Origin: Rhodothermales bacterium
Lineage (GTDB): Bacteria; Bacteroidota; Rhodothermia; Rhodothermales; UBA10348
Assembly: GCA_040221055.1 (NCBI GenBank)
Contig: JAVJVN010000018.1
Span: 124,001-188,000, forward strand
DNA: 64,000 nucleotides
Reading direction: 5' to 3'
Of this stretch, positions 5,798 to 8,818 are shown piece by piece. The notes beneath the pieces are model-generated. The model saw only the letters and a program-made list of their open reading frames with translations, was not told the DNA's origin and ran no database searches. Numbering within the stretch: the stretch's first letter is position 1; each line of letters begins with the position of its first letter. Made by a program: the position numbers and the translations under genes.

Positions 5798-6771
5798 GAT
5801 CAGCGCGATGCGGCGGGTTGGCCCGTTCATTGACGGCCGTCCTTCTCGTCAGCGCAGGCCTGCTGCCGGGATGTGGACCAGCCAATGACCTGTCTATACC
5901 CAGGGCCGAACCGGACGTATGGCGGTTCGAATTTGAATCCCCCCACATGGGTACGCTTTTCCGGGTGGTCCTGTATGCGTCCGACTCCCTGTCCGCCGAG
6001 CGGGCCGCCCATGCGGCGTTTGCCCGGGTGGATGCCCTGAACGCCATCCTGAGCGACTATGCGCCGGAGAGTGAACTGAACCGGCTGTCGGACACGGCGG
6101 GCCAGGACACGTTCGTGCGCGTATCGGATGACCTGTGGACGGTCCTTCGTCGGGCGCAGGAGGTTTCGCAGGAGACGGACGGCGCTTTCGATGTGACCGT
6201 GGGGCAACTGACGCGGATCTGGCGCCGGGCCATCCGTCGGAACACGCTTCCGGACCCTGCGGACATCGCCCGCGCGCGCGCAACCGTGGGTTACGCATCC
6301 ATTGAATTCGATTCCACAGGCGTGGGCACCAGTGAATGGCGGGTCCGCCTTCAACTCCCGGGCACGCGGCTGGACCTTGGCGGCATCGCGAAAGGCTACG
6401 CTGCGGACCAGGCGCTCGCCGTAGTTCGTTCCCATGGATTCGATCGGGCGCTGGTGGATGCCGGCGGGGACATCGTGGCCGGAGCGCCCCCTCCCGGCCG
6501 CGAAGGCTGGCTGATTGACCTGCCCGGGGGCCGGACCATGCTGCTTGCCAATGGTGCCATGGCCGTGTCAGGAGATGCCTACCGCTTCCTGGAGGCGGAT
6601 GGCGTCCGGTATTCCCACGTGGTCGACCCACAGACCGGATACGGCACCACCCATGTCCCCACGGTTGAATACGCGGCACCCGATGCCATGACGGCCGATG
6701 CCCATGCGTCGGCGCTTTTGGTTCTCAGGGCACGTATTATTACCGCAAACACCCACAAAGACGATCCATGA
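5794..6771 (+). CDS. apbE: FAD:protein FMN transferase (ApbE), lipoprotein
   Basis: ApbE attaches FMN covalently to threonines of exported flavoproteins using FAD and magnesium. The GTG start at 5794 overlaps the preceding stop by 4 bp and gives a lipoprotein signal ending LLPGC. Family motifs are MGTLFRVVLYA, DYAPESELNRLSD, GAFDVTVGQL, LDLGGIAKGYAADQAL, ALVDAGGDI and SGDAYRF...YSHVVDPQTG, with DAMTADAHASALLVL holding the metal-binding Asp and Thr. After LLVL the protein ends within 14 residues, so it lacks the last 20-30 residues most relatives have. It overlaps the next gene by 4 bp (ATGA). Its partner flavoprotein is not evident nearby. Confidence 0.9.
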   Translation: MRSARCGGLARSLTAVLLVSAGLLPGCGPANDLSIPRAEPDVWRFEFESPHMGTLFRVVLYASDSLSAERAAHAAFARVDALNAILSDYAPESELNRLSDTAGQDTFVRVSDDLWTVLRRAQEVSQETDGAFDVTVGQLTRIWRRAIRRNTLPDPADIARARATVGYASIEFDSTGVGTSEWRVRLQLPGTRLDLGGIAKGYAADQALAVVRSHGFDRALVDAGGDIVAGAPPPGREGWLIDLPGGRTMLLANGAMAVSGDAYRFLEADGVRYSHVVDPQTGYGTTHVPTVEYAAPDAMTADAHASALLVLRARIITANTHKDDP

Positions 6772-7700
6772 ACAGACGATCCTTCATTGCCAAGGGCAGC
6801 GCGGCGGCCGCGGTAGCCAGCACCGGTCTATTTTCCCTGGACGCCGCCTTTTCGTCCCCCCGCCAACGGGAATTCAACGCCGCGCGGGATTTCAACCTCG
6901 CCTATGCCCCCCACTTCGGCATGTTTGCCGATTCGGCCGGAGACGACCTGGTGGATCAGCTGGAGTTCGCCGCGGGACAGGGCTTTACCGCGTGGGAGGA
7001 CAACGGCATGAAGGGCCGCAGCGTGGCCGAGCAGGAGCGCATTGCGGCAGCCATGGGCCGACTTGGTATCCGGATGGGCGTCTTCGTGGCCCACACCATT
7101 TTCTGGCGGGAGCCCAACCTGGCCAGTGGCCGCGACGACTGGCGCGAACAATTCCTCACGGAAATCCAGGAGTCGATTGAGGTTGCCAAGCGCGTGAATG
7201 CCACGTGGATGACGGTCGTCCCGGGACATGTCGACCTGCGCTCCGATATGGGCTACCAGACCGCCAACGTCGTGGAATCCCTACGCCGCGCATCCGAAAT
7301 ACTCGAGCCGCATGGCCTCGTCATGGTACTCGAGCCGCTGAATCCCCGGGATCATCCGGGACTCTTCCTGACGAAGATCCCGCAGGCCTACGAGATTTGC
7401 CGGGCCGTGGACAGCCCGTCCTGCAAAATCCTGAATGACCTCTACCATCAGCAGATCACCGAGGGTAACCTGATTCCGAACATCGACCGGGCGTGGGAGG
7501 AAATCGCTTACTTCCAGATTGGCGACAACCCGGGGCGGAAGGAGCCCGGAACCGGTGAAATCAACTACCGGAACGTCTTCAAGCACATCCACTCGAAGGG
7601 ATTCTCCGGGATCATGGGCATGGAGCACGGCGTCGCGGGCGAGGGCGCAGCCGGCGAACAGGGCCTGGTGGAGGCATACCGGACGGTCGACGCGTTCTAG
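6768..7700 (+). CDS. Tat-exported TIM-barrel protein, hydroxypyruvate isomerase-like
   Basis: A 310-residue xylose-isomerase-like TIM barrel. MNRRSFIAKGSAAAAVAS is a twin-arginine export signal. The barrel contains MVLEPLNPRDHPG, CKILNDLYHQQITEGNLI, IGDNPGRKEPGTGEINY and GIMGMEHG, which match the metal-binding Glu/Asp/His pattern of hydroxypyruvate isomerase-type proteins. The start codon overlaps the apbE stop (ATGA), so the two are probably translationally coupled. The stop codon TAG is shared with the left edge of the inserted element: T and A are the duplicated target and G is the first base of the element. The true substrate is uncertain, since exported homologs usually act on other sugars or keto-acids. 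Confidence 0.87.
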   Translation: MNRRSFIAKGSAAAAVASTGLFSLDAAFSSPRQREFNAARDFNLAYAPHFGMFADSAGDDLVDQLEFAAGQGFTAWEDNGMKGRSVAEQERIAAAMGRLGIRMGVFVAHTIFWREPNLASGRDDWREQFLTEIQESIEVAKRVNATWMTVVPGHVDLRSDMGYQTANVVESLRRASEILEPHGLVMVLEPLNPRDHPGLFLTKIPQAYEICRAVDSPSCKILNDLYHQQITEGNLIPNIDRAWEEIAYFQIGDNPGRKEPGTGEINYRNVFKHIHSKGFSGIMGMEHGVAGEGAAGEQGLVEAYRTVDAF

Positions 7701-7966
7701 GGCCTGTTAACACTACGCCTGAGCCCGCTGTAGCTATCAGAAATGGCGTTTATCAAGGCGTGAGGAGTGAAGTATGGCAGCGTCATTCGAGTGACGAGCA
7801 ACACAGAGAAACGCCATTTCCGACGCTACCCGAAGGGACGGGGCCAATTTGGCGCCCACCGGCGTTGTCCTCTCCTCGAGTAACGCTGCTACACTTCGGA
7901 TCGTCCGCCTTGGCGGACAACAAATTGGCCTCCGTCAGCGGGCTCTGGCGTAGTGTTAACAGGCCC
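7700..7966. mobile_element. MITE-like palindromic element, 267 bp, TA target duplication
   Basis: The ends are 31-bp inverted repeats, 7700-7730 and 7936-7966, that match at 30 of 31 positions and begin GGGCCTGTTAACACTA. They are flanked by TA at 7698-7699 and 7967-7968. No transposase frame is present. A second inverted pair, 7770-7791 with 7875-7896 (18 of 22), is symmetric about the same centre. Each half also has its own local hairpin: 7740-7751 with 7809-7820 (12 of 12) and 7842-7851 with 7921-7930 (10 of 10). A small 7-bp hairpin lies at 7903-7918. The TA duplication suggests mobilisation by an IS630/Tc1-mariner-type or TA-targeting IS5-type transposase acting in trans; the family cannot be fixed from this copy. 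Confidence 0.8.
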
Positions 7967-7972
7967 TAGTAC

Positions 7973-8179
7973 CTACGAACGGTCTTTCTCCCGCTCGATG
8001 GTCGTGTCCATTCCTTTCAGGAAGCCCCTCATTTTTGTCAGAGGCTTCGCGGGTACGAGTTGAATCTGATTGTCAAAGGCAATCAGATCGACCTCCTGAC
8101 CGGCGTGCACGTTCATGAACTGCCGTATTTCCTGAGGAATCAGGACGTGATTCGTGGAAGACACTTTGACTCGGACCAT
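7973..8179 (-). CDS. AbrB/MazE/SpoVT-type DNA-binding protein
   Basis: A 68-residue swapped-hairpin transcription factor, recognisable from MVRVKVSSTNHVLIPQEIRQFM followed by AGQEVDLIAFDNQIQLVPA. Such proteins are usually the antitoxin of a VapC or MazF toxin. The ATG at 8177-8179 is preferred because AGAGG lies 7 nt upstream; ATGs at 8185 and 8197 would overlap the end of the higA-like gene. No PIN-domain or MazF toxin follows: the gene ends 6 bp from the right edge of the MITE-like element. It is read in the same direction as higB-higA and probably belongs to their transcript. Confidence 0.8.
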   Translation of the reverse strand: MVRVKVSSTNHVLIPQEIRQFMNVHAGQEVDLIAFDNQIQLVPAKPLTKMRGFLKGMDTTIEREKDRS

Positions 8180-8189
8180 TATCATGCCT

Positions 8190-8492
8190 CTATCCATGTG
8201 GGATGTCTTTTAGCTTTGCACCCAGGAGAAAAAAGGATCTCAACATCAAATCGGTGCTGACAGACGAGTCTGCGGCCTCGATTTTTGCGATTCGGGATTG
8301 ACTGGATCGGAGCGCCTTCGCAACTTCCACTTGGGTCAACCCTTTTTCGCGGCGCAAGTCTTTCACTTTCCGTGCCAGGGCAGCTTTGAACTCAATGTAC
8401 TCTGTCTCCTCGGGAGTTAGTCCAAGAAATTCCGAGGCATTGCCAGACGTCCATCCAGCCGCCTTGAGTCGTTCAGCCTTTTCCTTGTCCAT
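8190..8492 (-). CDS. higA: HigA-like XRE family antitoxin
   Basis: A 100-residue protein with a helix-turn-helix: VKDLRREKGLTQVEVAKALRS then SQSRIAKIEAAD. The preceding FLGLTPEETEYIEFKAALA is typical of antitoxins paired with Gp49-like HigB toxins. It should neutralise the toxin encoded 5 bp upstream and repress the operon by binding the dyad at 8826-8845. The gene order toxin-antitoxin is the normal one for higBA. The region is poorer in GC than the flanking glycogen genes, which suggests acquisition. Confidence 0.87.
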   Translation of the reverse strand: MDKEKAERLKAAGWTSGNASEFLGLTPEETEYIEFKAALARKVKDLRREKGLTQVEVAKALRSSQSRIAKIEAADSSVSTDLMLRSFFLLGAKLKDIPHG

Positions 8493-8497
8493 GATTT

Positions 8498-8818
8498 CTA
8501 CAGGTTTCTGTACTGTCGTATCCTGGATTGGGCGTTGACAATCACATTTTGGGGAGTCGAAACACTCTTTTTAGCGAAAACGTCCAGGATGACAATCGCA
8601 TCTGGTTCGATCGCATAGACTATGCGCCAGGTTTGGTCTCTGTCTTGAATTCGAAGTTCATGACAACGTTTACTGATCTGGGGCATCGGCCTCGATTGCG
8701 GAAGACCAATACGATCTCCCCCTTGCAACAATCTAAGCAGATAACCTGCTTCCAATCTGGCGTCGGCTGAAAACGGGGGAGTTTTAATTTCCCCGGACAA
8801 CCAATATAGTGGTTTCAT
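8498..8818 (-). CDS. higB: HigB-like toxin, phage-derived Gp49-like family
   Basis: A 106-residue RelE/ParE-superfamily toxin of the Gp49-like type, whose members generally cleave mRNA at the ribosome. Landmarks are WLSGEIKTPPFSADARLEAG, LPQSRPMPQISKRCHELRI, TWRIVYAIEPDAIVILDVF and a final Lys-rich stretch FAKKSVSTPQ. The length is that of intact relatives, and nothing suggests inactivation. It is the first gene of the minus-strand operon higB-higA-abrB, 8 bp downstream of a perfect inverted repeat. Confidence 0.88.
   Translation of the reverse strand: MKPLYWLSGEIKTPPFSADARLEAGYLLRLLQGGDRIGLPQSRPMPQISKRCHELRIQDRDQTWRIVYAIEPDAIVILDVFAKKSVSTPQNVIVNAQSRIRQYRNL

Follow-up and report, generated by a model that had tools for sequence, protein, structure and literature searches.

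The 269-bp palindromic element at positions 7699–7967 of the window (i.e., the whole 64,000-nt stretch of DNA analysed here) is a mobile MITE with IS5-type ends, whose two arms are each conserved as a fold of one strand and which often inserts at stop codons in a way that completes them. The reading that we favor, at slightly better than even confidence, is that this IS5-type MITE carries arms selected as one-strand folds, rebuilds the stop codon in which it lands, and supplies the adjoining gene with an arm that would act as an RNA hairpin in the 3′ UTR. MITEs are mostly regarded as empty palindromes, whereas in this one selection for a single-stranded fold is clear in the interior, and two arms that are correct from either side make the purpose of MITE hairpins directly testable.

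Alignment of 50 copies, together with empty sites in sister genomes, fixed the extent of the element:

7699–7967, no strand assigned: whole element, AGGGCC...GGCCCT, 269 bp

The sequence-only reading had proposed a MITE-like element at 7700–7966; its mobile nature is borne out by copies in the host and its relatives and by empty sites, and its ends move outward by one base on each side, to an A at 7699 and a T at 7967. The sequence is far from unique: the host genome (3.32 Mb searched, 99.5% complete) holds four full copies (100, 94, 93, and 90% identity) plus several solo ends, and more occur in relatives. Among 60 relatives, many copies were found in three sister species, and three further genera of the same family carry copies that are ~67–71% identical over most or all of the length. 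A covariance model (R1) built from the left half and searched against 245 genomes of the class recovered the same genera together with two species of another family (G242 and G244; E down to 1e-29) and, weakly, a member of a third family (G212). Pattern counts gave 109 and 102 ends in G242 and G244, respectively (~50 copies each; 2 in each reversed control), and 45 element ends in G212. Relatives of the element span three taxonomic families of one Bacteroidota order, with up to ~50 copies per genome in a patchy distribution marked by lineage-specific bursts; no copy was found in the plasmids, phages, and viral contigs searched. The element is short and multicopy and has no transposase gene, the largest ORF in a mechanical listing being 69 aa.

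Its class assignment rests on direct comparison of its ends with those of complete ISs:

7699–7715, + strand: left terminal repeat AGGGCCTGTTAACACTA, common to IS ends
7951–7967, − strand: right terminal repeat, inverted copy of the left

The left end agrees at 16/16 positions with each end of an IS5-family IS of G039 (L270, 854 bp) and at 15/16 with two more (L260 in G049, 853 bp, and L267 in G004, 814 bp; one change each), all three with TA at both flanks and with two overlapping ORFs that match the NF033580 IS5 family transposase, PF13340, and PF01609. Two host copies (L102 and L103) carry a variant end, GGGCGTGTTCACACTA, and an IS on a viral contig (L291) has this variant at either end. 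Because its 16-bp ends equal those of an IS5-family (IS427-type) IS, the element is best read as an IS5-type MITE, and an enzyme of that type would have mobilised it. For the IS427 group in Paracoccus, lengths of 832–865 bp, a pair of overlapping ORFs, and direct repeats mostly of 2 bp are reported (PMC3281130); the related ISs found here (814–854 bp, two overlapping ORFs) fit this IS5-family group in size, layout, and IR length. The element shares with IS5/IS427 ISs and MITEs the same 16-bp ends and TA at the flanks, but its interior is unrelated to the IS and its host has no partner IS. Specifically, no IS with matching ends was found in the host (99.5% complete) or in the many-copy genomes G001, G242, and G244, so that their copies seem to be orphans unless the IS dropped out during assembly, as multicopy ISs often do in MAG binning. 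Likewise, no IS4/IS5 transposase and no PF01609 or PF05598 match was found in the host. Such a MITE usually shares its genome with a partner IS but need not do so, since the partner may have disappeared.

Other transposition systems fit less well. An IS630-type MITE (Correia/RUP-like) is not indicated, as no IS630 transposase (PF13358, DDE_3) was found in the host (G000), G001, G003, G242, or G244. An IS1182/DUF772 partner was rejected as absent from the host, the terminal repeat was not found at the ends of the IS1182-like 480-aa transposases of G002/G003/G008, and C53 (G242, 2.0 kb), considered as an autonomous element with two terminal repeats, contains ordinary genes and no transposase. 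Stem-loop-replacing transposition of the IS1272 type (IS1182 family) proceeds with no target duplication reported (PMC5678879), but the partner here is IS427-type rather than IS1182-type, and the empty sites indicate plain insertion with no stem-loop replaced. We also considered a REP/REPIN-like identity, with a RAYT (Y1) transposase as the mobilizing enzyme; the two inverted hairpins and the many intergenic copies would suit it. This is hardly credible, and so far as draft assemblies allow it is refuted for the genomes listed: PF01797 (Y1 transposase) has no match in the host, in any of its three sister species, or in G242 and G244, and the element, much longer than a REPIN, has true, long terminal inverted repeats identical to those of an IS5-type IS.

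Insertion occurs at T^A-like sites, as seen in the joined flanks of empty sites in sister genomes: ACC|ATTCA in G003 at the L104 locus, which fits no duplication; GTT|ACAG and GTT|AGAG in G049 and G058 at the L154 locus; TTCT|AAGA in G242 at the L167 locus; and further empty sites at the L102 locus (G003) and the L165 locus (G242 and G058). Across 50 copies, A precedes GGG in 43 and T follows CCC in 43, and the next bases outward are T in 31 (left) and A in 34 (right). TA/TA flanks occur in 16/50, and the left and right dinucleotides are equal in 18/50, against 17.0 by chance. These flank counts and uncorrelated dinucleotides leave two readings: the element itself includes the A and T, with nothing duplicated, or a TA duplication has decayed. 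We lean toward the former, and the lack of correlation leaves a 2-bp target duplication unproven.

The inverted repeats from which the element was first recognised are present where they had been placed, all around a center at 7833: outer arms 7694–7730/7936–7972 (37 nt, 95%), a left hairpin repeat 7737–7754/7806–7823 (18 nt, 89%), a right hairpin repeat 7842–7860/7912–7930 (19 nt, 79%), and an inner pair 7754–7791/7875–7912 (38 nt, 71%). The whole element folds at −152.8 (+ strand) and −158.8 (− strand) kcal/mol (z = −13.0 and −11.6), far beyond chance, with a minimum-energy fold that on the + strand is largely a single long rod and on the − strand an outer stem with two side arms. In the outer stem, two-sided changes number 97 against 36 in shuffled alignments, and G·U (4.9%) and A·C (4.6%) are balanced, i.e., without strand bias:

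7697–7730, + strand: outer stem, left side, pairing with 7936–7969 (33 pairs)

The sequence-only reading had taken the hairpins in the two halves to be unrelated, which was wrong: in aligned copies the halves are inverted homologues of 137 nt each, and in the window copy the arms are 57% identical (alignment score 6 vs. −23 ± 4.8 for shuffled sequence), their stems differing by paired compensatory changes. The palindromic origin that it proposed gains support in the form of an inverted duplication of one arm unit; the interior is a hairpin unit of ~100 nt duplicated in inverted orientation and does not derive from an IS. Its further suggestion that the inner arms pair with each other, as kissing loops or one long stem, is unsupported, with covariation barely above shuffles: in 25 two-armed elements, inner left–right pairs are 74.8% paired (73.5% shuffled) with 29 two-sided changes (14 shuffled), against 100 (43 shuffled) within the left arm and 122 (48 shuffled) within the right.

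Each arm is a hairpin of ~100 nt with strong compensatory change, its covariation 2–2.4 times that of shuffled alignments (RNAalifold; 25 left-arm and 26 right-arm copies):

7730–7829, + strand: left arm hairpin
7774–7786, + strand: left arm apical hairpin, 5 pairs, 98.4% paired
7837–7936, − strand: right arm hairpin, inverted homologue of the left arm
7880–7892, − strand: right arm apical hairpin, from the same right-arm analysis

In the left arms, 95.2% of cells are paired (82.3% shuffled; 35–42% when slid) and covariation is 0.353, a value that no shuffle reached (0.150 shuffled); in the right arms, 93.9% are paired and covariation is 0.397 (0.184 shuffled). Whole base pairs have been exchanged in the left apical hairpin (A-U/U-A 13:12 at columns 79/91; U-A/C-G 14:11) and in the left stem (columns 50/120, C-G 11 and G-C 10; columns 56/114, A-U 14 and U-A 10), though these counts are inflated by kinship, as most two-sided changes split few clades and independent events are fewer than cells. 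Neither outcome that the sequence-only reading had named as refuting it came about: the element is not confined to one copy, and its hairpin arms change in compensated pairs. It is the folded shape rather than the sequence that is conserved across several bacterial families.

The arms also retain a strand. In its sense strand the left arm has 5.0% G·U vs. 0.8% A·C, and the right arm in its own sense strand (−) has 11.4% G·U vs. 2.6% A·C, a relation that reverses when it is read on the + strand. Between the basal and apical stems of each arm lie tandem G·A mismatches:

7753–7771, + strand: left arm tandem G·A internal region, 5′ side (3′ side 7789–7807)
7895–7909, − strand: right arm tandem G·A region, 5′ side (3′ side 7864–7878)

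GA/GA occurs at three places in the left arm (18/25, 25/25, and 21/25 copies) and at two in the right (16/26 and 14/26), the second of which has Watson–Crick pairs (GA/TC) in 7/26; an invariant GC/AA step stands ahead of the G·A region in both arms (25/25 left, 26/26 right). The G·U excess and the tandem G·A show that only one strand of each arm is maintained as a fold, the one read from outside inward. Together with the covariation, these features support the selection on a folded form that the sequence-only reading had suspected. They bear directly on the distinctly improbable alternative that mutation alone keeps the arms paired, with template switching and gene conversion between quasi-palindromic arms turning mismatches into matches. 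Conversion would suit the terminal repeats, which within each element agree with one another more than with other copies, and the unbiased outer stem; on the contrary, template switching erases mismatches, yet tandem G·A and the invariant GC/AA persist (in up to 25/25 copies), and G·U exceeds A·C in the sense strand of each arm.

The arm features mark a single-stranded fold and by themselves do not separate RNA from single-stranded DNA. The main rival to an RNA role, which we judge unlikely, has the arms acting as single-stranded DNA or as a cruciform in transposition or replication, with RNA playing no part. Hairpins are used in this way by IS200/IS605 elements, G·T and tandem G·A pairs are stable in DNA too, the arms fold as DNA with z of about −4, and in copy L164 the right-arm loop runs the opposite way to that of the others (L152), as if by hairpin-mediated recombination. 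Yet the partner, an IS of the DDE type, has no arms at its own ends, no Y1 transposase was found in the host, its three sister species, G242, or G244, one-armed copies exist (L056 in G001, 173 bp; G212 copies, 162–247 bp), and the two arms fold on opposite strands.

The position of the element relative to genes bears on the same question:

6768–7700, + strand: upstream gene, xylose-isomerase-like TIM barrel (PF01261), stop TAG at 7698–7700
7973–8197, − strand: convergent neighbor, MazE-like antitoxin (PF04014), stop 5 bp from the element

The upstream stop TAG is composed of T 7698 and the first two bases of the element (AG, 7699–7700). Of the copies flanked by 700 bp or more on either side, 13/34 complete the stop (TAG, TAA, or TGA) of an adjoining gene (ORFs of at least 120 codons), and one (L003) does so at both ends. 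Outside gene interiors, 4.7% of TA sites belong to stop codons, giving a rough binomial tail of 2e-9, a statistic based on naive gene calls and on copies that are not fully independent among related genomes; the excess may simply reflect tolerated sites. The antitoxin gene belongs to a minus-strand group at 7973–8818, convergent with the TIM-barrel gene, that also encodes an XRE-type HTH protein and a Gp49/HigB-like toxin (PF05973).

Since each arm is correct only in the inward reading and insertions are concentrated at stop codons, we favor RNA hairpins in the 3′ UTR as what the arms probably are. Selection keeps each arm as a single-stranded fold that reads from its own end toward the center, such that a transcript entering from either side would meet a correctly folded arm first. 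On insertion at a T^A-like site within a stop codon, the element end restores TAG and leaves the gene intact, and the gene gains a structured 3′ UTR in the form of the first arm, where the hairpin could serve in 3′-end protection, termination, or processing and render the insertion harmless or mildly useful. The element in this way shows a neat route by which a transposon can insert at gene ends without damage. A bolder proposal, which we advance as a tentative possibility, is that the arm is a new structured-RNA class (basal stem, tandem G·A region, and apical stem-loop) in two mirror copies that form a stop-codon-rebuilding, bidirectional 3′-end cassette. If true, any gene behind which the element landed would receive a correctly folded 3′ UTR, and a selfish element would be made harmless.

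That the host instead maintains the element as a bidirectional transcription terminator, its mobility being secondary, is very unlikely. The window copy does lie between convergent genes and the element often starts at stop codons, but no U-tract follows the stem in the arms, the distribution is patchy with lineage-specific bursts, and scars show that the element is freely lost. The solo-end scars of the host are TAGGGCTCTGGCGTAGCG... at C4:191386 and four identical 23-bp AGGGCGTGTTCACACTACGCCCT sites (C9:176351, C9:440312, C14:245550, and C18:28461), the latter possibly deletion scars of elements with GGCGTGTTCACAC ends. Loss by deletion across the short repeats GGGC and ACGCC would fit these scars.

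Among known structured repeats, bcr1 and others of the Bacillus cereus group are MITE-like, hairpin-forming, and intergenic; the present element differs from them in host and sequence and in having two inverted homologous arms with tandem G·A. The covariance models of Rfam 15 gave no match on the element or its arms. Outside but beside one copy in G009, a sub-threshold RsmY-like match was noted (L082:57–184; 30.2 bits, gathering 57). Several copies depart from the common architecture. The one-armed elements of G212 (L176–L185) have an arm with inserted extra nested palindromes such as CCCCGCAGTACTGCGGGG, and in four copies (L053, L066, L078, and L080) small hairpins have been added to the left arm, either in its basal stem or in its apical loop. 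The right-arm loop of L164 (G244), inverted relative to G242 copies such as L152, shows a flip that resembles that of hairpin telomere repeats.
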